Translations under genes and position numbers: made by a program
Assembly: GCF_001719125.1 (NCBI RefSeq)
Contig: NZ_CP017006.1
Coordinates: forward strand, 868,001-932,000
Direction: 5' to 3'
Length of the DNA stretch: 64,000 nucleotides
Source: Sulfolobus sp. A20
GTDB taxonomy: Archaea; Thermoproteota; Thermoprotei_A; Sulfolobales; Sulfolobaceae
Notes under the pieces: generated by a model
What the model saw: only the letters and a program-made list of their open reading frames with translations
Databases searched by the model: none
What the model was told of the DNA's origin: nothing
Shown here: positions 28,404 to 62,187 of the stretch, piece by piece
How the letters are laid out: each line of letters starts with the position of its first letter
How positions within the stretch are numbered: the stretch's first letter is position 1

Positions 28404-29603
<1,200 letters not shown>

Positions 29604-29631
<28 letters not shown>

Positions 29632-30185
29632 AGAGAAATTACACCTAAGCCTAAAAATATAACGTCATATTTATTTGGCTTTATATTACTCTTGTAAGAA
29701 TACTTACCAAACAACTTTAAAGTATATGCATAATACAAATTTTCTGCAATCTTTATAATTTCTACTATGATCGGTAGTAATATCCTTTTTATATTAAAGG
29801 GACTTATTTTTCTTATTCTTGAATAGAACATAATTTTTTGTGTAATTTCGTAAAATAATGGATAATATGATAAAGCTATTACTACTAAAACTCCTTTTGA
29901 ACCTAGTAGATCCAAGATAGAGGATTTATCAGTATGATCACTTGCAATTAGGAAGAGGTTAATTAGTGTGAAAGCTCTTAACGTGTAGCTATAGATAAAA
30001 ACTTTGTGAAATGTCGTCAATATTACGAAGGATAGTATCGCTACTGCTATTTCTACAAAAATTACCGATCTCCTTTTATATAATACAGCTATGGTTAATA
30101 TGAATGGTATAACAAAATTATACAGTATACTTGATAAATATATGAAAATTGAAAATAAAATAATATAAAGAAATTTTGATTTCAT
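29604..30185 (-). CDS. ECF transporter transmembrane component EcfT
   Basis: A 193-aa integral membrane protein with about five hydrophobic segments. The cytoplasmic coupling region [20 protein letters not shown] near residue 125-145 carries the basic helices that contact the ATPase grooves in EcfT. Coupled by a 4-nt overlap to the S component gene upstream and overlapping the ATPase gene downstream, it is one operon. Sequence identity of EcfT is generally low, so context supports the call as much as sequence. Confidence 0.7.
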
Positions 30186-30736
30186 TTAACTATCCCTGAC
30201 TTTATTAAATAAGACGATATCTGATATGCTATGAATCCCATTAGAGCGCTTTCAGCGAACATTCCAATTGAGACTCCCACCCAAATATATAATGCAGTTA
30301 CTACTGGTGCAGGGACTTTAATCATATATAAGGCTAGTAGAGTACTTAGTATCCCTTCAAGACCTCCTGCTATTGTAGTGTAAATTATAACTGACTTTAA
30401 TGATCTATATCCCATAAATCTAGTTATGACTTCAACAATTATTGCTATAAGTAATAGTGGTATTGCTATGAACGGTAAGAAGCTAATTGTGTAAAGTACC
30501 GCGCTAATCAACCCTATAAGCAGGGGACCATATGTTCTATTAATGATTTGAATTCCCACTGAAATTATTAGCAGTGGGACTGTTAGATTTAATATAGGAT
30601 CAGCAAAAATATTTACAGCGTATAGTCCACTACTTAAAGCAATCGCAGCAGCTACAGCATAAGACGCTACTGAAAATATTGCAGCGTAAACAGAAGCTTT
30701 CTTTATTGACATGGTACTTTCATGTTTTCCATTCAT
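30182..30736 (-). CDS. ECF transporter substrate-binding S component, substrate unknown
   Basis: Six predicted membrane helices within 184 aa, Ala/Ile/Val-rich, with small residues in the first helix (AAIFSVASYAVAAAIALSSG) as in S components that bind ATPase-T modules through an Ala-rich face. It starts the operon with EcfT and fused ATPase. Vitamins such as thiamine precursors, riboflavin or biotin are family substrates; the sequence does not let me choose. An alternate ATG lies nine codons in. The next gene upstream is a thiamine-diphosphate-enzyme relative, 97 nt away. Confidence 0.65.
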   Translation of the reverse strand: MNGKHESTMSIKKASVYAAIFSVASYAVAAAIALSSGLYAVNIFADPILNLTVPLLIISVGIQIINRTYGPLLIGLISAVLYTISFLPFIAIPLLLIAIIVEVITRFMGYRSLKSVIIYTTIAGGLEGILSTLLALYMIKVPAPVVTALYIWVGVSIGMFAESALMGFIAYQISSYLIKSGIVK

Positions 30737-30832: not shown

Positions 30833-32458
30833 TTAAATTCTAGGTAAAATAACAGATTCAAAGTCTGGATCAATTTTTACATTAATAACTTTTTTATCAC
30901 TCACTAGAGCTTTTTCTAATTCTTGAACACTACTTACTGTTATGCCATCAGTTTCCTTCATTAGTTTATCAATATCAATATTTATTTCAACTTGTGATTT
31001 TGATAATGTAGGAACGTCAGATTTAGAAGTGTCTAAATAATTTCTGCCGTTATCATTAATTATTATAATTTTCCCTTTAATATTGTTTAGCTTATAATGT
31101 AATAGTGAGATTGAATTGATAAATCCTTCCAAATCAGTTACACCTAAGGCCTTGCTTTCAGAGCCAATAACTCCACCTATTGCTATACCTCTTTCAAGTA
31201 ATGATTCGTTAGTATACCAGCTCTTTTTGGATTTGATAGGTAACCTTACAAAGTCAAAGGTAGTTGCACTAAGATCTATAAAGTATTTTTCAAAATTACT
31301 TGTTTTTCCTACTATATCAACTATGTCTATAGGCCATAGACTATCGTGCTTTCTTATGTTAGAAATACCTTTATTCATTTTACTTAGGGCTTCTGCTGTA
31401 CCTCTATTTATCTTATCTTTAATTTTGGTCTTTAGTTGGGTTAACAGTTCTTTAAGAAACAATCCAGTATCGGCAACAACAGGCACATGAGGCATATACA
31501 CCTTACCTATATCCTCTCCATCAACATTATTGTGCACTAATATTCCCTTATATTTTAGAGACCACCCTGCGGTTGAAAGTTGTGTAAATCTGGTTCCTAT
31601 TGCTAAAATCACATCAGCATTCTCTAAGATATAATTAGATGCTTCTGTACCAAAAGATCCTAAACCTTCACCTGCAAATAATTTATGGTCAGCTGGAATT
31701 ACTCCCTTAGCTTTAAATGTGGTGATAACGGGTATATCCAATAATTCAGCTAACTCAATCAAAGTACTTTCAGACTCACTTAATACTACTCCATAGCCAG
31801 CAATTATTACTGGTGTTTTTGAATTAAGTAGTAATTCAACTACCTTTGATACGGTATTTTTGTCAGGAGACTTCTTCTCCGGTTTCTGGCCGGAAGTGGA
31901 TAATGGATAAGCCTTAGCTTTAAATAGGTCTTCTGAAATTTCAACGTATGTTGGTCTTGGTCTATTGCTCAGTGCGTCCTTGTAAGCTTTCTCTATAGTA
32001 ATTGTAATTTCTTCGATGCTAATTACTCTCTCTCTCACTTTGGTTATTGGGGAGAAGATATTAGATAAGTCATCATTAGTTCTGAATTCGCCTACTCTGG
32101 CTCTCCCCACATCTTTGTGAGATCTAATACTTGATATTAGTAAAAGAGGCACTGATTCCATGTATGCTTGTGCCACTACGTTAACCGCTTCTGTTAGTTT
32201 TGAGCCTGGTATTTGAATAATGACTCCCGCTGTATTATTTTCTTGGGCATATGAATAAGCTAAAAGTGATGCATCTCTAGTGTTAAGTGAAATATCTATA
32301 TTTATATTATACTTTTGTAGCATCTCTTTTACAGTATTTGGTAAAGAATAAGTTGTGAATACTTTTTTTATTCCTATATCGTTAAGCACATAAGCTATTG
32401 CTTCTTCTCCTTTCATCTCTACGCCAACAGTTTCCTCTTTCCTTTTAACTTGACTCAT
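30833..32458 (-). CDS. Acetolactate-synthase-like thiamine-diphosphate enzyme, degenerate
   Basis: The chain has the three domains of ThDP enzymes: PYR (residues 15-170), central FAD/NAD-like domain with [12 protein letters not shown] and ILAIGTRF, and PP. The N-terminal conserved Glu that activates ThDP (normally in an H-E-x2-A motif) aligns with [14 protein letters not shown], i.e. it seems to be missing, and the C-terminal GDG...NN cofactor motif is reduced to VTDLEGF...INDNGRNYL. It may therefore be non-catalytic or have a changed reaction. It is transcribed alone next to the ECF operon. Confidence 0.75.
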
Positions 32459-32497
32459 AACGATAATTTAGGATGATCTTATTTTTAAATTTTTAAA

Positions 32498-32613
32498 AGC
32501 CGGGGGCGGGATTCGAACCCGCGAAATAACGGGTTTCTACTTTTAAACCACTGCGGCCCCTAGCGCTACCGATGGGCTGGTAGTGCCGCCTTAGACCGCT
32601 CGGCCACCCCGGC
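32498..32613 (-). tRNA. tRNA gene, class II-like with probable intron(s), anticodon unresolved
   Basis: Clear tRNA ends are present on the minus strand: acceptor GCCGGGG with CCCCGGC, box A TGGCCGAGCGG, and T-arm GCGGG-TTCGAAT-CCCGC. The part between D-arm and T-arm is far longer than in a mature tRNA and includes a hairpin CTACC/GGTAG and a possible variable-arm helix GGTTT/AAACC. GCC-GAG-type D-arm and a long variable region suggest Ser or Leu, but U33 and anticodon could not be placed with a single canonical intron. Discriminator would be T. Confidence 0.7.
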
Positions 32614-32669: not shown

Positions 32670-33230
32670 ATGATACAGTTTTCTAAAATAGGGGAAATAC
32701 TTCATGAATTACAATCTTTGACAGATTTTGTAATAATAGGTGACACGATATTAGATTTACAGCTTAAAAGAAAAGGAACTGACAGTGATATTGATATATT
32801 TGTTTTAGGTATAAGTGTTTTGGTTGACGATGATGCTATACGAGATTTCGCATATCAAAGAGGCTGGGATTACGGTAGAACACCTATAGACACTCCAAGG
32901 TTATTCGTACCTGTAGATGATGATCAGCTTCAAATAGATTTATATGAGAATATACAAGATTTTTTTGTACCTAAAGAAATTATAGAAAACGCAATTGATA
33001 TAAAATTAGGAAATTATCAGTTTAAAACTGTAAGATTGGAAGATTATATTCTTCTTAAAGCTAATGCGTTTAGGGAAGAAGACGAGGATGAATTAAAAAC
33101 TATAGTATATCTTATAGGGGAAGGGAAATTAAGTGTAGATAAAAATTATATAAGAGAACATATAAAATTATTTGAAGAAAACAGTGAAAGTATAAAGGAG
33201 AGATTATCTTACATAGGAATAAAAATTTGA
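32670..33230 (+). CDS. Predicted nucleotidyltransferase
   Basis: FVIIGDTILDLQLKRKGTDSDIDIFVLG fits the GS/GD...DxD motif of the pol-beta-like nucleotidyltransferase fold, with the second acidic pair in TDSDIDI. A C-terminal helical region with LEDYILLKANAFREEDEDELK resembles the substrate domain of MNT/AbiEii-type enzymes (LEDYILLKA). A defence-type toxin role is possible but no antitoxin partner is adjacent: neighbours are a tRNA and L40e. Biological role unknown. Confidence 0.6.
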   Translation: MIQFSKIGEILHELQSLTDFVIIGDTILDLQLKRKGTDSDIDIFVLGISVLVDDDAIRDFAYQRGWDYGRTPIDTPRLFVPVDDDQLQIDLYENIQDFFVPKEIIENAIDIKLGNYQFKTVRLEDYILLKANAFREEDEDELKTIVYLIGEGKLSVDKNYIREHIKLFEENSESIKERLSYIGIKI

Positions 33231-54185: not shown

Positions 54186-55103
54186 TTAATTTTTATTTAA
54201 AACATCTTTAACCGCTTTTCTTACTGCATCTTTAGAGGTAAGTTTTGGTTTCCAACCCAACTTTTTTATCTTAGTTATATCTAATAGCATAAACCTCACA
54301 TCACCGGGCCATCCTCTACCTTCTCCTGCGTCCTCATATATAATTTTAGGATTGACGTTCATCTCACTCATAACAATATTTGCTATTTCGTCCACAGTAA
54401 TCCAATCTTCATTTCCCACATTATATACATTAAAAGTATTATTATCCCTAGTTTCTAGTACGAAGAATGCTTCAATTAGATCATCTATGTAAAGGTAACT
54501 TTTTCTTTGCTTTCCATTCCCTAAGATTTTCAATACGTTAGGGTTACTCTTTAACTTATTTACGAAATCAATAATTACTCCATGCGTAACTCTGCCACCT
54601 ATTATATTAGCTAATCTAGTTATAATACTTTTAATACCATATTGCCTAGCATAATAATCCACTATATTTTCGCACAGTAATTTAAATAAACCATAGTTTG
54701 AGATGGGTTTTAATTCTGCTGTTTCTGGAGTTGGTATTATATTTGACTCTCCATATACTGTAGACGAAGAAGTAAAGATTACTTTTAGCGCATCTTTTTT
54801 CCTAGCCAGTTCCATAACATTCAACGTAACTCTTACATCTCTCTCAAAATGTTCTAAAATATTTGTCATTGACGACTTGACATCAGGGTGTGCAGCAAGA
54901 TGATAAAAAATTGCACCCTTTTCTATTTCGTTAAATTCATTCGTTATAGGTATCCTAAGATCATATTTCATAGTTTTAGCATCTCTATTTATATAATTTC
55001 CTAGGGAAAAGTCATCTATTACTACGACTTCTGAACCTTTTTTTATTAGATGGTCTGTTAAATGTCCTCCTATGTATCCTGCTCCTCCGAGAATAACATA
55101 CAA
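54186..55103 (-). CDS. NAD-dependent sugar epimerase/dehydratase
   Basis: SDR-extended family: [19 protein letters not shown] is the NAD loop, the catalytic Tyr/Lys in [13 protein letters not shown] with [10 protein letters not shown] before it. It acts on nucleotide sugars such as UDP-glucose/galactose, precise substrate open. The frame is open to 55130, but the TTG at 55103 starts at YVILGGAG and is the likelier start. Possible role in glycans of the S-layer or N-glycosylation. Confidence 0.82.
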
Positions 55104-55174
55104 AGTTAGATCACAGATGATTATTAGCATAATTATTTATTAAAGTAAAGGACGTGAAAGTTGTAACTTTCCAA

Positions 55175-55477
55175 TCAGTTATTCCTATTTTTCTCTACCT
55201 TAGCTACGATATTATTAAAAATTAACTTAATTGTATAATTCTTACTTTTTATTTTCTTTACTGAAATTATAAGATTTACCTTCTTGTCCCTAGGATACTT
55301 TTTATCTTTTATTATTATTGGGTCTAATCCCAGATTTTTTGATTCAGTTAAAATATCTTCTATGGTAATTTTATACTGGATTTTTCTAACTCTTCTACCT
55401 TTAGATCTGCTGTTTGATAAGAAATATGAAGGCCAAATAACTATTCTGTTTTCATCTTTAAGATCCCTTAGACTCAT
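55175..55477 (-). CDS. srp19: Signal recognition particle subunit SRP19
   Basis: NRIVIWPSYFLSNSRSKGRRVRK and LGLDPIIIKDKKYPRDKKV are the SRP19 7S RNA-binding segments. The start MSLRDLKDENRI at 55477 is used; an in-frame upstream ATG at 55507 extends the chain over S8e. It overlaps rps8e by 20 nt. SRP19 assembles SRP54 on 7S RNA for membrane targeting. Confidence 0.92.
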   Translation of the reverse strand: MSLRDLKDENRIVIWPSYFLSNSRSKGRRVRKIQYKITIEDILTESKNLGLDPIIIKDKKYPRDKKVNLIISVKKIKSKNYTIKLIFNNIVAKVEKNRNN

Positions 55478-55859
55478 CTCTAACCAACACTGCATTAATA
55501 ACTCCATCTTGACCTGGTCTAGACTTAACTATTGCAATGCCTGCTTCAGTTCTTATCTTAGCCCCTCTTATAATAATTCCTCTTCTAGCCAGCTCCTTAT
55601 TGGCAGGAGTTTCAATCACTTCTAATATCTTAACTTTCTTAGCAGTATTATTAGCAGGATCTATTAGGTTGGCAAAGCTTGCATACTTTAACCTCACTTT
55701 AAAATTACCACCTAATATTCTTTCTTTAACTCTCGTATCTTCAGATGAGATGGTAGTAAATGTAGGAGGGCTGCCAATTTCATATTTTCTCTTATCTCTA
55801 TTTTTTCCCTTTAACCCGCCAGATATTTTTCTATTGTCTGGGCCTTGATAAAATCCCAT
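55458..55859 (-). CDS. rps8e: 30S ribosomal protein S8e
   Basis: MGFYQGPDNRKISGGLKG begins the archaeal S8e; GNFKVRLKYASFANLIDP and IIRGAKIRTEAGIAIVKSRPGQDG follow. 133 aa, basic. Located between uppS (42-nt gap) and srp19 (overlap), likely one operon. Confidence 0.95.
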   Translation of the reverse strand: MGFYQGPDNRKISGGLKGKNRDKRKYEIGSPPTFTTISSEDTRVKERILGGNFKVRLKYASFANLIDPANNTAKKVKILEVIETPANKELARRGIIIRGAKIRTEAGIAIVKSRPGQDGVINAVLVRDESKGS

Positions 55860-55901
55860 AATTAACGCCGAGTTTAAAATCTAGATCACAAGAATAAAAA
55901 C

Positions 55902-56690
55902 TTAAGCCCCAAAGTTACGTTTTCTTTTTTGATATGATCTAATGGCTCTCCATAAATCTATTTTTCTAAACTCTGGCCAATAAGCTTCGCAGAAGAAGAG
56001 TTCTGAGTATGCTATATGCCACAATAAGAAATTACTTATTCTAACTTCCCCTGAAGTTCTAATAACCAGATCAATGTCTCCTAGTTCACTATCATAAAAA
56101 TACTTTCTAAATAACTCTTCATTTACATCTTCTTTCTTTATTTTTCCATCTTTGTAGTCTTTAATAATTTTTGTTACTGCATCTATAATTTCTTGTCGTC
56201 CACCATAACATATTGCCAAAGTTAATTTCCTTTTATAATACCTAGAGGTTTTCTCTATTATTTTATGAATGTATTGCTGCAACTCCAGTGGTAGTTTATC
56301 AAGCTTACCTATAGCATTAACTCTTATTTCATATCTATCGATTATAGGATCACTTAATAACTCCTCTAGTCCTCTCCTTATATAACTTAATACTATAGAC
56401 AGTTCCTCAGTGCTTCTCTTCTCACAGTTTTCAGTTGAAAGCGCGAATACAGTTATGTTTTGAATCCCTAGATTAAGTAACCAAATTAAAACTTCTTTCA
56501 ATTTCCTATATCCATAAAAGTATGCATCGCCAAGAGAAAGATTATTTAATCTAGCCCATCTTCTGTTTCCGTCTGGTATGATCCCCACATGCTTAGGTAG
56601 GGGCCCATCTTTTATTTCTCTCCATAATGTCATTTCATAAATTTTATATATCGGCCTTAAGACTAATCTTTTTAGCTTCTCTTTTGCCAT
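55902..56690 (-). CDS. uppS: cis-Polyprenyl diphosphate synthase (UPP synthase type)
   Basis: [14 protein letters not shown] contains the catalytic Asp in the IPDGNRR motif, followed by the GYRKLKEVL helix, [17 protein letters not shown] and the C-terminal [20 protein letters not shown]. It condenses isopentenyl diphosphate in cis to the polyprenyl carrier for N-glycosylation lipids. Overlaps lysK by 19 nt, so it is coupled with the lysine genes. Confidence 0.95.
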
Positions 56691-57715
56691 AACTCTTCTA
56701 TTGCTAGCATATACGTCTTTACACCTATATATATTTCATCCAAACTGATTTTTTCTTGATCTGTATGTTCTAAAGAAGAATTGCCAGGTCCATATCCTGC
56801 TATATTATAGCAGATCTTATTTAAAATGTTCATGTCACTAGTTCCTGCCTTTCTAACTAATCTAGGCTTAAGTTGTTGTTTTAATAAAGCTCTCATTAAA
56901 GATTTTACTACATCGTTATTTGTGCTTACTTTTACTGGTGGTGTTTCATCGATTACTTTAATTTCACACTCCTTAAAAATATTCTGAACTTCGTCAAGTA
57001 TTCTATCTCTATTATCATTAATAGCATATCTAATATCTAAGTGTAGATACACTTTAGAGGGGGTCACGTTAAATGTATCACCTGCATTTATAACTGTTGG
57101 GACAATTGAAACTTTATCGAATTTTTCGGGTGGTTTGTATATTTCTAATATTTTTTTAGAAATATCTACTATTAAATTATTTCTTGCTGAAGATGAGTGT
57201 TCTGAGTTACCATAGCATTGAATATCAAGTTGAATGGATCCTCTATACTCTATTACTATGTCAGTAGTATTTGTTGGTTCCCCTACTATACAATGTCTAT
57301 AGTTCGAGCTAAGGGAAACTAACTCTCTGGCACCTATGCTAGTGCTTTCTTCATCCGTGAGTGCAGCTACTGTAACTTTTATTCCTCTTTCATTAAGTAA
57401 CCATGCAGCTAAAATCATCCCTACTAGTGGTCCCTTCGCATCAACTGCTCCTCTTCCATAGATTGTCTCACCTTCTTCCTTAGGAGGTATGAAGCCAGGT
57501 ACTGTATCAACATGAGAGGCTAATAGTACATCTCCTTCGCCAAGTATAAAAGAATTTGATTTAGGTAGTATTTTTAGTTTTAAATTAAGTTGATTTGAAA
57601 TCTTCTCAAAAAATGCTGTTGAAGTCCTTTCATTTTTAGAGGGCGTGTAAATAGATAAAATATCAAGAAGTAACTCTTTTGCTTTCTGTTTCACTAATTC
57701 CTTTTCTTGCAGCAT
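56672..57715 (-). CDS. lysK: LysW-lysine/ornithine hydrolase
   Basis: M20-family metallopeptidase: [11 protein letters not shown] (metal His and Asp), [32 protein letters not shown] with catalytic Glu-Glu, and the C-terminal RKAGTSDMN. LysK releases lysine, and in Sulfolobus ornithine, from the LysW carrier. Its start overlaps lysJ by 53 nt in another frame. Confidence 0.92.
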
Positions 57716-58826
57716 CTGAAGCCCACTCCATATCTGCTTGTGTTATTAAATAAGGTGGTAAAAATCTTATAGTAGAAATTCCTGCCTTTAAGGATAAGAC
57801 CTTTTCGTCTTGGATTACCTTTATTGCTTGAGAGGGATTAAATCTGAGATCAATTCCGATCATTAATCCTAACCCTCTTATTTCTCTAACTGATTTAAAG
57901 TCACGTAATTTTTCTTCGAGTAATTTCATGAATAATCTACCTTTTTCTTCTGCTTGATATGGCACGTTTTCGTTTACGAGCACTTTACAAGATGCTGTAA
58001 CAGCAGCTGCTGCCAATGGATTTCCACCATAAGTCGAACCATGGTCGCCTTCTTCTAGTGCTTCACTTATCCATTCTGGTAAAAATACAACACTCACTGG
58101 AAATCCTCCACCTATTGCCTTTCCTGCCGTTAAAATATCCGGTTGGATGCCAAAGTGTTGATATGCCCATATTTTACCGGTTCTCCCAAAACCTGTTTGC
58201 ACTTCATCAATTATAAGTAGTGAACCGGTCTTTTGTGTTATTTCACGTAAACTTTTCATAAACTCTTGTTTAGCTGGTATTACTCCTCCCTCTCCTTGTA
58301 TTGGCTCTACGATAACCCCAGCTACCTCTTCATTTATTTGTTTTAATAAGTCTAAATTGTTATATTCCAAGAATTCGACTGGCGTTAAGAGAGGTTCAAA
58401 AGGTTCTCTATACTTCTTATTCCAAGTAACGGATAGTGCTCCTACTGTTCTTCCGTGAAAAGAGTTTTTAAACGCAATTATTTTCTTTCTTTTTGTCACC
58501 TTTCTCACTATTTTTAAAGCTAACTCTACTGCTTCAGATCCGCTATTTAGTAAAAATGCGTTATCTAGATTATCTGGCTTTACACGATCAAGTTCTTTTA
58601 TCATTTCCTCTCTTATCGGAGTATCAAATGCTGGTGATAATGTTACTATTTGATTAAGCTGCTTGGTTAAATATTCTATGACGGTCTTGTTTCTATGTCC
58701 AAGAAAAGCTACACCATGTCCTGCATGCATATCTAAATATTTTGTTCCATTAATATCCCATACATATTGACCTTCTCCTTTAACTATTTTTAGACCTCTA
58801 TCTTGATAAAACTTGAGAAGCTTCAT
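57663..58826 (-). CDS. lysJ: LysW-aminoadipate/glutamate semialdehyde aminotransferase
   Basis: Class III aminotransferase: [41 protein letters not shown] and the PLP lysine in [15 protein letters not shown] (about residue 236). It transaminates the LysW-bound semialdehyde to LysW-lysine or -ornithine. One nt downstream of lysX; 387 aa. Confidence 0.93.
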
Positions 58827-59678
58827 TCACCTTTTCACCCATTCAGCAATTTTCTTTAATAAAAATTCTGACAAATTAAAGTTATTTACTCTTACAGTAT
58901 TTTTATACTCCGGAACCCCATTCACTTCATCGACAATGTATCCTCTTTCCTTATCTTCAAATACGTCGATCCCTAGGAAAAATCCTCCTACTATTTTTTG
59001 TACTTTTAATGCAATTTCCCTAATCTCTTCATCTATTTTGAGAGGAAGTGCTTTAGCACCTAGAGCAGTGTTAGTTCTCCAGTTCCCCTCATTTACTCTA
59101 TATATTCCGACAGGAACTTCGTCTCCTATTACAAAAACTCTAATATCTCTATTAGGTTTATTTATGAATTCTTGTACATAAAATATATCTTTATACTTTT
59201 GGTTTGTAAATTCTTGATATTCTAAATAACTATATAAAGTATCAGCATTATCAGCCTTAGCTACCATCCTTCCCCAACTTCCTTCAACTGGTTTTACAAC
59301 AACTGGAAATCCAAGTTTCTTAGCATATTCTAACGCAGATATTCTATTAAACGCTACATAAGTTTTAGGAACGTTAATATTATGTTTTGATAATAAATAG
59401 GTTGTAAATATTTTATTTTCACATAAAATAAGATTATTATAATCATTAATCACATGGTAGCCCATCTGCTCTATTATAAAAGAAGTTACGAGGGCTCTAT
59501 TATGAGAGACGTTTCTTTGCAAAAAAATATCTATATCTTCATTTAATTTTAGCTCATTAGAAAAAAACACTGTATCCTTAGTATACAATGGATATAGCTT
59601 AAAACCTAACTTTTTACTCTCCTCGACTAAGTTTTTTTCCTCCCATCGCAAAATATCATACAATAATCCTATTCTCAC
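58827..59678 (-). CDS. lysX: LysW-alpha-aminoadipate ligase (ATP-grasp)
   Basis: ATP-grasp chain with [27 protein letters not shown] (nucleotide Lys, P-loop) and GIDVFE...[11 protein letters not shown] (metal binding). It attaches alpha-aminoadipate to the C-terminal Glu of LysW. GTG start overlapping the lysW stop as GTGA. An ArgX-type preference for glutamate cannot be excluded by eye, but the context with lysM is that of LysX. Confidence 0.88.
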
Positions 59679-59845
59679 TCTCCCCAGTCCTCGCCAACTT
59701 CTTCCGCTAATCTAAGATTTAATCTATTATTTTGCTTGATTATTTCTAATTGAGCGCCACACTCATGCTCTACAAGCTCTCCAGGTAACGCATCATCTTC
59801 TACACTTACATCTCCACCACATACTGGACATTTTAGGATTACCAT
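59675..59845 (-). CDS. lysW: Amino-group carrier protein LysW
   Basis: A 56-aa acidic zinc protein, [20 protein letters not shown] with a second half HECGAQLE, ending EDWGE. C-terminal Glu-Asp-Trp-Gly-Glu is the signature of LysW; its last Glu side chain carries the intermediate in lysine and arginine synthesis. Zinc ligands: CPVC, His and Cys. It leads the lysWXJK unit. Confidence 0.96.
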
Positions 59846-59911
59846 ATCAAGATCAGTTAGAGAGTATATGGTTTTGTGTTGAAAAACTTTTTAGTAATAA
59901 ATGGTACGTTT
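59846..59911 (-). promoter_or_regulatory. lysW promoter and candidate LysM operator
   Basis: The 66-nt gap between lysM and lysW is AT-rich. An 11-nt symmetric AAAAACTTTTT lies at 59882-59892, about 40 nt before the lysW start; Lrp-family regulators favour such AT-rich pseudo-palindromes, and LysM is known to act on this promoter in S. solfataricus. A CATATAC stretch near 59865-59871 is a possible TATA. Confidence 0.4.
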
Positions 59912-60340
59912 TTAGAACCATGTTCTAAGAATTATAGTACTATTAGTTCCTACTACACCTTGGATACTTCTAATCTCATCTATTGTTCTATTGATAGATG
60001 TGATGTTAGTTCCTCTAACTATTACTAAGATGTCATAGTCTCCAGTAGTTTCGTATACTACTTCTACTCCAGGTATTTTGGCTATTTTCTTAGATATTTC
60101 AGAAGTAGGAATTTGTGGGGTAGACTGAACCATAACCACTGCCCTTATTTCATTTTCCAATTCGTACTCAATGGTAAATCTTTTTATAATCCCCTGCCTT
60201 ACTAATTTTTCAATTCTTTTCCTAACTGCTGCTTCACTAACTTTCAGCTCCTTTGCTATTAATGTATATGGCGTTCTAGCATTCTTCTTTAAGATTTCTA
60301 ATATCTTTAAATCGCTATCATCTATACTAGGGCTAGGCAT
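59912..60340 (-). CDS. lysM: Lrp/AsnC-family lysine regulator LysM
   Basis: N-terminal HTH: DDSDLKILEILKKNARTPYTLIA, SEAAVRKRIEKLVRQGIIKRF; C-terminal RAM domain with VVYETTGDYDILVIV. 142 aa. LysM activates lysW transcription when lysine is low. It overlaps lysZ by eight nt and precedes lysW. Confidence 0.93.
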   Translation of the reverse strand: MPSPSIDDSDLKILEILKKNARTPYTLIAKELKVSEAAVRKRIEKLVRQGIIKRFTIEYELENEIRAVVMVQSTPQIPTSEISKKIAKIPGVEVVYETTGDYDILVIVRGTNITSINRTIDEIRSIQGVVGTNSTIILRTWF

Positions 60341-61127
60341 TTGTAATCACCGTCCCTTTTAGTTGTAAAGCATTACTAATAGGATTATCTTTCATTCCTG
60401 AAGCTATTATTACTTTTCCAATTCCATTTTCAATTGCTTCAGCACTCATTAAGAGTTTTCTATTCATGCCAGGTCCTATCTTAGATGCTAGTTCTCTAGC
60501 CTCCTCTGCCGTTAATTTATTGATCACCTTATTATCAACTAATACACCTTCTACATCTGATAGCATTACGAGAGTCTCAGGTTTAACGGCTTTACTTATA
60601 GCAAAAGCAGCTTGATCAGCATCAATATTTAGAGGTAACTTTTCCTCAATATCTAAAGCAAAAGGTGACAATATTATTGCATCAAATAACATAAGTAAAT
60701 TATTTATAACATCTCCTCTAATCTCCTTAACTTTACCTGTATAGCCACCATCAATTAATCGTTTTTTGCCCCTCTCATCAATTATAACTATTTTCTTTTT
60801 TCTTTCAGCAATTAGTAGTCCACCATCAACACCAGATATACCTATAGTGTTCTTTCCTAAGCTTAACAATTTCGATACTATCTGTTTATTTATAAGGCTC
60901 ATTGTCATAACATAAATATCAAGTTCTTCCCTACTCGTATACCTACTCTTGATACCCTCTGGAGAAGTTACAAATGTTGGTTCTATCCCCATTTTCTTAG
61001 AGTATTCTGTTACTATGTCTCCCCCTCCGTGTATTAGTATAAGCTTCTCCTTAATGTTTACAATATCATCTACTACTTTGTCTAGGGAATTTTTAACTAC
61101 TCTACCACCTATCTTTATTACAATCAT
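60333..61127 (-). CDS. lysZ: LysW-aminoadipate/glutamate kinase
   Basis: Amino acid kinase family (ArgB-like): VIKIGGRVV, LIHGGGDIVTEYSKKMG, NIDADQAAFAISKAV and MLSDVEGVLVDN motifs, and GPGMNRKLLMSAEAIENG at the C-terminus. Phosphorylates the LysW-bound alpha-aminoadipate. Followed by lysM and preceded by lysY with one nt gap. Confidence 0.93.
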   Translation of the reverse strand: MIVIKIGGRVVKNSLDKVVDDIVNIKEKLILIHGGGDIVTEYSKKMGIEPTFVTSPEGIKSRYTSREELDIYVMTMSLINKQIVSKLLSLGKNTIGISGVDGGLLIAERKKKIVIIDERGKKRLIDGGYTGKVKEIRGDVINNLLMLFDAIILSPFALDIEEKLPLNIDADQAAFAISKAVKPETLVMLSDVEGVLVDNKVINKLTAEEARELASKIGPGMNRKLLMSAEAIENGIGKVIIASGMKDNPISNALQLKGTVITNA

Positions 61128-61128
61128 C

Positions 61129-62187
61129 TTAACCAGGCCTCAAGGGTGCTATTTTTAAACCTTCATCCTCTTCAAATCCCATATTAATATTAAATGCTTG
61201 TACAGCTTGTCCTGCAGCTCCTTTCATTAGGTTATCAATTGCTGAAAACATAGTCAGTCTTAATACTCTTTTTTCCACTGCAAATCCCACGTCAGCAAAG
61301 TTACTGCCAATTACATATTTAGGGTCAGGATAAGGGTGTATGTTTCCTTTAACTACTCTTATGAATTTCTTCCCTCTATAGAACTCGGCTACTTTTTTCC
61401 ATATTTCAAGATCACTAATATCACTAGAGAGCCAACTGTGAGCAGAAGCCAAAGCACCTCTAACACTACTAACAGCGTGAGGAACAATACTAATCATAAT
61501 ACTGTCTTTAGCCAACCTAGATAGCTCTTGTTCTGCTTCAGCTGAGTGTCTGTGTCCTTCTGCTTCATAAGGTCTTATTGCATTCTGTCTCTCAGGATGA
61601 TGACTTCCTTCAGAGGGCTTAGCTCCACCCTCACTGCTACTTACTTTTACATCGCTTATAAACCTTTTACTTTCAGTTAATTTAGAGGCTACTATAGGTG
61701 CTAATGCTAATATCGTAGCAGTAGCATTACAACCCGGAGAAGCGATTAGCTTGGTGTTCTTTAGTTCCTCGTAATGTAATTCAGGTAAGCCATATACAGC
61801 TTTATCTAACAGATCTGGATAAGGATGTTCGATTCCATACCACATTTTATAAGCTTGAGGATCCTTCAGCCTAAAGTCGGCACTTAAGTCCACAACAGTT
61901 AGCCCTAATTCTAAGAGTTTCGGTACATAATTCATAGATACTCCATGGGGTAGGGCTAGAAATACTACATCTGCTTTCTGAGAAATTTGATCTATATCGA
62001 AGTTAGAGAAATTTTTTGAGATTAAACCTCTTAGGTTTGGGTGAACTAATGATATTGGTTTACCGGCATATTCCCTAGAAGTCACTAAACTTATTTCAGT
62101 TTTCGGATGAGTTACTAGTATTCTTAGTAACTCTCCTCCCGTATATCCTGAACCGCCTACTACTGCAACTCTAACTTTGTCTTTCAT
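61129..62187 (-). CDS. lysY: LysW-aminoadipate semialdehyde dehydrogenase
   Basis: ArgC-type reductase: VAVVGGSGYTGGELLRIL is the NADP loop, the catalytic Cys is in ASPGCNATATILAL (about residue 153), His in KVSSSEGGAKPSEGSHHPER region. 352 aa. Reduces the acyl phosphate made by LysZ. Divergent from a crenarchaeal hypothetical gene. Confidence 0.94.
   Translation of the reverse strand: MKDKVRVAVVGGSGYTGGELLRILVTHPKTEISLVTSREYAGKPISLVHPNLRGLISKNFSNFDIDQISQKADVVFLALPHGVSMNYVPKLLELGLTVVDLSADFRLKDPQAYKMWYGIEHPYPDLLDKAVYGLPELHYEELKNTKLIASPGCNATATILALAPIVASKLTESKRFISDVKVSSSEGGAKPSEGSHHPERQNAIRPYEAEGHRHSAEAEQELSRLAKDSIMISIVPHAVSSVRGALASAHSWLSSDISDLEIWKKVAEFYRGKKFIRVVKGNIHPYPDPKYVIGSNFADVGFAVEKRVLRLTMFSAIDNLMKGAAGQAVQAFNINMGFEEDEGLKIAPLRPG

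Follow-up and report, generated by a model that had tools for sequence, protein, structure and literature searches.

A Sulfolobaceae relative of thiamine-diphosphate enzymes that lacks the activating glutamate and may have adopted a non-catalytic role

What does the fold of a thiamine-diphosphate (ThDP) enzyme do once the activating glutamate is gone? The question is raised by a 541-residue protein encoded on the minus strand at 30833..32458 (stop codon included) of the 64,000-nucleotide stretch of DNA analyzed here, referred to throughout as the window and forming part of a 2,688,317-base contig that is itself the entire assembly. By sequence, the protein is related to the ThDP decarboxylases and acetolactate synthases. 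Pfam recognizes TPP_enzyme_M (the TH3 domain, PF00205) at E 1.3e-38 and TPP_enzyme_N (the PYR domain, PF02776) at E 2.6e-13, and TPP_enzyme_C (the PP domain, PF02775) is absent from the matches up to E 0.1. Both PF02776 and PF00205 are matched in all 24 orthologs scanned and PF02775 in one of the 24 (E 0.0062); relatives score 128-134 bits against TPP_enzyme_C (3 of 3 scanned). Along the minus strand, the open reading frame begins with an N-terminal tail (residues 1-13, 32420..32458), which has a 12-letter consensus (letters not shown), is near-invariant among orthologs and is mostly missing in relatives. There follow a PYR domain (residues 14-185, 31904..32419, the Pfam match spanning 15-120), an unusually conserved PYR-TH3 linker (residues 186-202, 31853..31903), a TH3 domain of the R, nucleotide-binding type (residues 203-338, 31445..31852), which is the best preserved of the three, and a shortened PP-like domain (residues 365-541, 30836..31366). 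The best curated family matches are to acetolactate synthases and their kin and all fall far under the cut-offs: the best by score, IlvB (TIGR00118), reaches 158.9 bits against a cut-off of 538.35, and the glyoxylate carboligase model NF008431 reaches 140.1 bits against 791. The top sequence relatives in the PDB are BbmA, plant AHAS and glyoxylate carboligase.

The protein is carried by 29 of 31 genomes of the thermoacidophilic archaeal family Sulfolobaceae and by 28 of the 28 near-complete ones; the two genomes in which it is missed, G149 and G155, are 79% and 71% complete. No internal stop falls within the match in any of the 29. When 398 genomes were drawn from the phylum, the 19 Sulfolobaceae genomes among them all matched with values no worse than 1e-254, and the best match after these stood at 1.4e-66. 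Outside the family, 39 genomes match at 1e-40, and the ten proteins read all carry the glutamate. In a tree of 13 of the 29 orthologs with 18 relatives, the orthologs group as a single clade with full support (100/100), and the stem leading to them measures 1.57 changes per column; a set of archaeal acetolactate-synthase relatives (L029, L059, L090-L094, L096 and L097), together with L002, shares a fork with that clade (93/99). A profile alignment of 24 of the 29 orthologs finds six loci when searched against genome contigs, and the single protein finds none. Named orthologs belong to Metallosphaera, Aramenus, two Sulfolobales archaea and one metagenome-assembled genome labelled Euryarchaeota. 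The copy in this last record ('Euryarchaeota archaeon', L075) is 53% identical and resembles those of Metallosphaera, so that this record is probably mislabelled or a mixture. The plasmid search returned only four haloarchaeal records, with 31-32% identity over about half of the query. Within the genomes sampled, the protein is single-copy and restricted to the Sulfolobaceae. Open-access literature yielded, among the matches listed, no paper that treats the protein or reports a Sulfolobaceae pseudoenzyme with the ThDP fold, and a term search of the main text of the S. islandicus essential-genome paper (PMC6249222) gave no hit. A second divergent archaeal group, represented by MJ0663 of the Methanococci, is described in PMC5311999.

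Alignment places T60-R61 (minus strand, 32276..32281, codons 32281-32276) at the site of the activating glutamate (standard position 51) and its neighbor, as the sequence-only reading had proposed from the window's protein. Not one of the 29 orthologs has Glu or Asp there. Instead, position 60 is occupied by eight residue types (V in 8, P in 6, T in 5, A in 5, I in 2, and L, G and M in one each), and the site therefore looks unconstrained. The equivalent residue is Glu in all 15 relatives compared, which were drawn from the window's genome, the order and the phylum and comprise 18 aligned sequences minus the three most divergent (L005, L006 and L007). L005 and L006 also retain Glu; in L007 (L007:1471-2946), a ThDP-enzyme paralogue of the window's genome, Asp replaces it. 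According to passages in PMC3534367, 94% of ThDP decarboxylase superfamily members have Glu 51 and 3% have Val; the Val is characteristic of glyoxylate carboligases, which are singled out there as the exception and are functional without the activating glutamate. Loss of the residue is a fixed trait of the family and not the peculiarity of one odd sequence. Whether the glutamate had simply shifted by a few positions, a possibility that the earlier reading had raised against itself, receives a divided answer: two residues on, an acid is common (D in 12 and E in 12, thus 24 of 29), but the remaining orthologs have G (4) or T (1).

A second expectation, that the cofactor-binding GDG/NN pattern is eroded, proved right for its first glycine and too sweeping for the rest. 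The superfamily positions concerned are Gly 443, Asp 444 and Asn 471, with Gly 443 of the GDGX motif present in 98% of members and Gly 27 of the S-pocket in 91% (PMC3534367, in part). In the window's protein, the motif aspartate (standard D444) corresponds to D442 (31133..31135, minus strand) and is kept in 28 of 29 orthologs; the metal-ligand asparagine (standard N471) corresponds to N468 (N468-D469, 31052..31057, minus strand) and is kept in 27 of 29, with D469 present in all. The residue preceding the aspartate is T or V in 29/29 orthologs and G in 14/15 relatives. Spacing between Asp and Asn is 26 residues in 25 of 29 orthologs, 25 in three and 23 in one, against 26 in 15/15 relatives, and the stretch from W414 to the aspartate has shrunk to 27-29 residues from the 33-34 found in relatives. 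S-pocket Gly 27, mapped here to residue 38, is never Gly in the 29 orthologs and is Gly in 11 of the 15 relatives. Other superfamily positions are intact: Ala 58, Pro 94, Gly 219, Asp 280 and Gly 286, mapped here to A67, P104, G221/G223, D282 and G288, are each kept 29/29. Since two paralogues of the same genome that do bear the glutamate also deviate in this motif (GDL in L002, TDG in L004), loss of the motif glycine alone is not decisive. As judged from the alignment, the metal ligands mostly survive and the turn before them is lost. Their survival would leave room for non-catalytic binding of ThDP or of another diphosphate, and is the main result that speaks against calling the protein simply dead. 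It would also fit a protein with ThDP binding intact.

Where selection acts is informative as well. In seven of nine ortholog pairs dN/dS lies between 0.02 and 0.17, the other two pairs being saturated in dS; the gene is under purifying selection. Mean pairwise column identity among orthologs is 0.80 in the tail, 0.61 in PYR, 0.795 in the linker, 0.70 in TH3 and 0.45 in PP, while the same measure for IlvB of the Sulfolobaceae gives 0.81 in PYR, 0.65 (0.649) in the linker, 0.81 (0.805) in TH3 and 0.86 in PP. The PP domain, the most conserved part of IlvB in these organisms, is thus the least conserved part of the orthologs. Conserved positions common to orthologs and relatives number 23 in TH3, 10 in PYR and 6 in PP; those lost number 6, 10 and 15, respectively; and the 71 newly conserved ones are distributed over PYR (23), TH3 (20), PP (10), the tail (10), the linker (6) and the hinge (2). 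These shared, lost and gained counts rest on different thresholds and are not fractions of one set. Nine polar residues are invariant, each in 29/29: T400, D402, R405, D469, D481, R112, S113, D116 and R121. By alignment, some of them appear to fall within the stretches from which relatives build their cleft. The herbicide site P197 of AHAS lines the active-site channel. In the profile alignment, S113 falls on P197 of Arabidopsis AHAS, which is the site of the P197T mutant named in the title of PDB entry 7tzz; as far as the alignment goes, this supports a rebuilt cleft.

An AlphaFold model built from seven sequences is of middling quality (pLDDT 64.8, pTM 0.47). Foldseek matches it to three-domain ThDP enzymes at E values down to 2.9e-30 with TM about 0.5 and rmsd about 16 Å, and a second structural alignment recovers AHAS, glyoxylate carboligase and pyruvate oxidase over nearly the full length, with Z about 22-24 and rmsd of 13-15 Å. 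The model retains an alpha/beta remnant of the PP domain. The model thus supports the predicted three-domain fold and not the packing of the domains.

The sequence-only reading had also looked to the neighborhood, where an ECF-type transporter seemed to hint at thiamine. Such genes do lie at 28444-30736, all on the minus strand: a putative S component (30182..30736), so named from its place beside T- and A-type genes; a putative T component (29604..30185), assigned by position and matching no family; and a double ABC ATPase (28444..29631). Their adjacency to the ThDP-fold gene, however, is a feature of one genus. An S component is detected in 30 of 31 Sulfolobaceae genomes, including G149 and G155, in which the ThDP-fold protein is missed, and is undetected in G147 (93% complete), which holds that protein. 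Among the 28 genomes with both, the two genes are adjacent in 7, at least 15 kb apart in 19 and on different contigs in 2 drafts; all seven adjacent cases come from the window's genus and make up 7/7 of its genomes, with the two matches some 95-140 bases apart. Because adjacency is confined to a single genus, it was rejected as a functional link with the transporter. For the S component itself, Pfam finds no credible family in the 21 members scanned (the best, Trep_Strep, at E 0.0054 in 2 of 21, and none for the window's own), a profile search of the PDB returned nothing up to E 10, and a single-sequence model is poor (pLDDT 58.1). Rfam at gathering thresholds finds three tRNAs only in the window. 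In four of eight loci viewed outside the genus (L034, L035, L041 and L073), the ECF set lies near an epimerase-type gene and away from the ThDP-fold gene. In L060, from the same genus as the window, the ECF genes sit between the ThDP-fold gene and an epimerase. C11/C12, which we take to be SRP19/S8e, adjoin the ThDP-fold gene in both L068 and L069, with no ECF genes between. ThiN proteins are found in every Sulfolobaceae genome, three in nearly every one, and those of about 313-329 residues we read as regulators; other genes therefore probably take care of thiamine synthesis and perhaps of its regulation.

What, then, does the protein do? The reading that we favor, with chances that we would call even, is that of a neofunctionalized, probably non-catalytic ThDP-fold protein with a ligand-binding regulatory or scaffold role. 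This agrees with the earlier suggestion of a non-catalytic binder or regulator, or of a changed chemistry, which would fit the loss of the glutamate, the degraded PP domain and the mostly kept metal ligands, and would fit the purifying selection and the new conserved residues as well. The protein would descend from a ThDP enzyme of the acetolactate-synthase/hydroxyacyl-CoA-lyase type in which ylide chemistry was most likely abandoned and the protein retained for another job. Its three-domain body would still fold and assemble, and the TH3 pocket, the rebuilt cleft or both would hold a nucleotide or diphosphate ligand without turnover, the cleft being made up of D442/N468 with the metal, of T400, D402 and R405, and of R112, S113, D116 and R121. 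The protein may thus bind a metal-diphosphate or a nucleotide. The surface formed by the tail and the linker would relay the state of the ligand to a partner, and the role would then be a regulatory one. More narrowly, and only tentatively, we picture a non-catalytic sensor whose cleft, rebuilt around the kept metal site, takes another metal-diphosphate or nucleotide ligand and whose basic tail signals to the partner.

Several other accounts have to be weighed against the favored reading. The catalytic residues are lost, as they would be in a decaying pseudogene, but the reading frames are intact with no stop in any of the 29 matches, dN/dS stays at 0.02-0.17 and new residues have become conserved; this account is refuted, and we give it practically no credence. 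Perhaps the protein is still a working ThDP enzyme whose activation dispenses with Glu, like that of glyoxylate carboligase. This is unlikely but has points in its favor: D442 and N468 are kept at mostly normal spacing, glyoxylate carboligase stands in the top row of the second structural alignment (tied with many), and Val, the commonest residue at position 60, is also the residue of glyoxylate carboligases in the relevant passages of PMC3534367. Yet position 60 wanders over eight residue types and is not fixed, the first glycine of the GDG motif is gone from all orthologs, conservation is lowest in PP, and NF008431 scores far below its cut-off. Were the cleft instead the seat of a new, ThDP-independent chemistry, one would look to the nine invariant polar residues and to the nearly invariant D442, which do favor such an enzyme; the PP half as a whole evolves fast, however, and the ten family loci contain no recognized gene partner that would suggest a pathway, so that we consider it improbable.

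Active sites in the ThDP-enzyme fold form between subunits, and the protein might accordingly be an inactive subunit that pairs with an active ThDP paralogue and regulates it. The well-kept TH3 domain and the six further matches in the window's genome (E <= 0.001) would suit such a partnership. Against it, G148 keeps the protein although its best IlvB match is only 30% identical, and IlvB therefore cannot be the obligate partner there; elsewhere IlvB identity is 75-92% in 27 genomes and 71% in G119, and G154 has two fragments. We regard this pairing, too, as improbable. More doubtful still is a ThDP sensor that works with the adjacent ECF transporter. The fold, the adjacency in every genome of the one genus and, in the single case of L073, a Phos_pyr_kin gene at some 3 kb from the ECF genes would be in its favor; the separation of the two genes in 19 of the 21 further genomes that have them both (the last two being drafts with the genes on different contigs), the presence of the protein in G147 with no S component detected, the epimerase-type neighbors of the ECF set and the ThiN complement all count against it.

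Among known systems, IlvB, encoded by a separate gene (L003) in the window's genome, shares the domain order, the fold and the TH3 pattern; the ThDP-fold protein differs from it in lacking the glutamate, in its altered GDG motif and in its shortened PP domain. The nearest relatives by sequence score, at 27-30% identity, are the nine archaeal acetolactate-synthase relatives that share the fork in the tree; all nine have both an EPxxGFM-type glutamate motif and the motif aspartate, and Pfam finds a full PP domain in L029 and L091, the only ones scanned. The 2-hydroxyacyl-CoA lyases and oxalyl-CoA decarboxylases rank highest with the model in Foldseek, level with AHAS, but are catalytic enzymes, unlike the protein proposed here; we know of no Glu-less clade among them. 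Glyoxylate carboligase, with a similar model Z, also lacks the activating glutamate, but its family has Val throughout (PMC3534367, in part) where 8 of 29 orthologs have it. Inactive enzyme paralogues do serve as regulators. One is yeast Thi3, and another is the trypanosome prozyme, which follows the proposed principle on an unrelated fold.

A clade that has lost the glutamate, mostly kept the metal ligands and persisted in 28/28 near-complete genomes is a natural test of the fold without its chemistry, in a group with workable genetics. It also bears on gene naming, as score-based annotation would easily label this ThDP-fold gene an acetolactate synthase.

The gene probably has its own promoter. 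A tRNA gene lies upstream at 32498..32613 (minus strand, Rfam 39.3 bits), is probably intron-containing and is missed by ARAGORN, probably because of the intron. In the gap between its 3' end and the start codon (32459..32497, minus strand), a TATA-like, AT-rich segment can be made out by eye some 20-32 bases ahead of the ATG. The same tRNA 3' end recurs, again by eye, in 21 of 24 upstream regions; it lies about 35-55 bases ahead of the start and is separated from it by AT-rich sequence. Divergent from the ThDP-fold gene is a DUF2204 nucleotidyltransferase-type gene (32670-33230, by Pfam), which adjoins it in eight of the ten family loci besides the window (not in L067 and L069). In seven of the ten (L060-L066) it is followed by the same run of genes, which we take to be aspartyl-tRNA synthetase, TruD, Pth2, EF-1beta and Cdc48, and it is treated here, provisionally, as part of a conserved housekeeping block. 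The epimerase of the window lies apart, at 54186-55130. It belongs to a segment at 54186-62187, with further genes that are presumably SRP19/S8e, UppS and lysine-pathway genes, which is more than 20 kb away here and adjoins the locus in related genomes such as L060 and L063; this suggests an inversion or a move in the window's genome. At the far end of the ECF set, a tRNA-Lys gene (28404-28498, plus strand) runs into the 3' end of the reading frame for the double ABC ATPase on the opposite strand. The last 17 or so codons of that frame are antisense to the tRNA, and it is 395 residues long against 366-373 in the four relatives L060, L071, L072 and L073.
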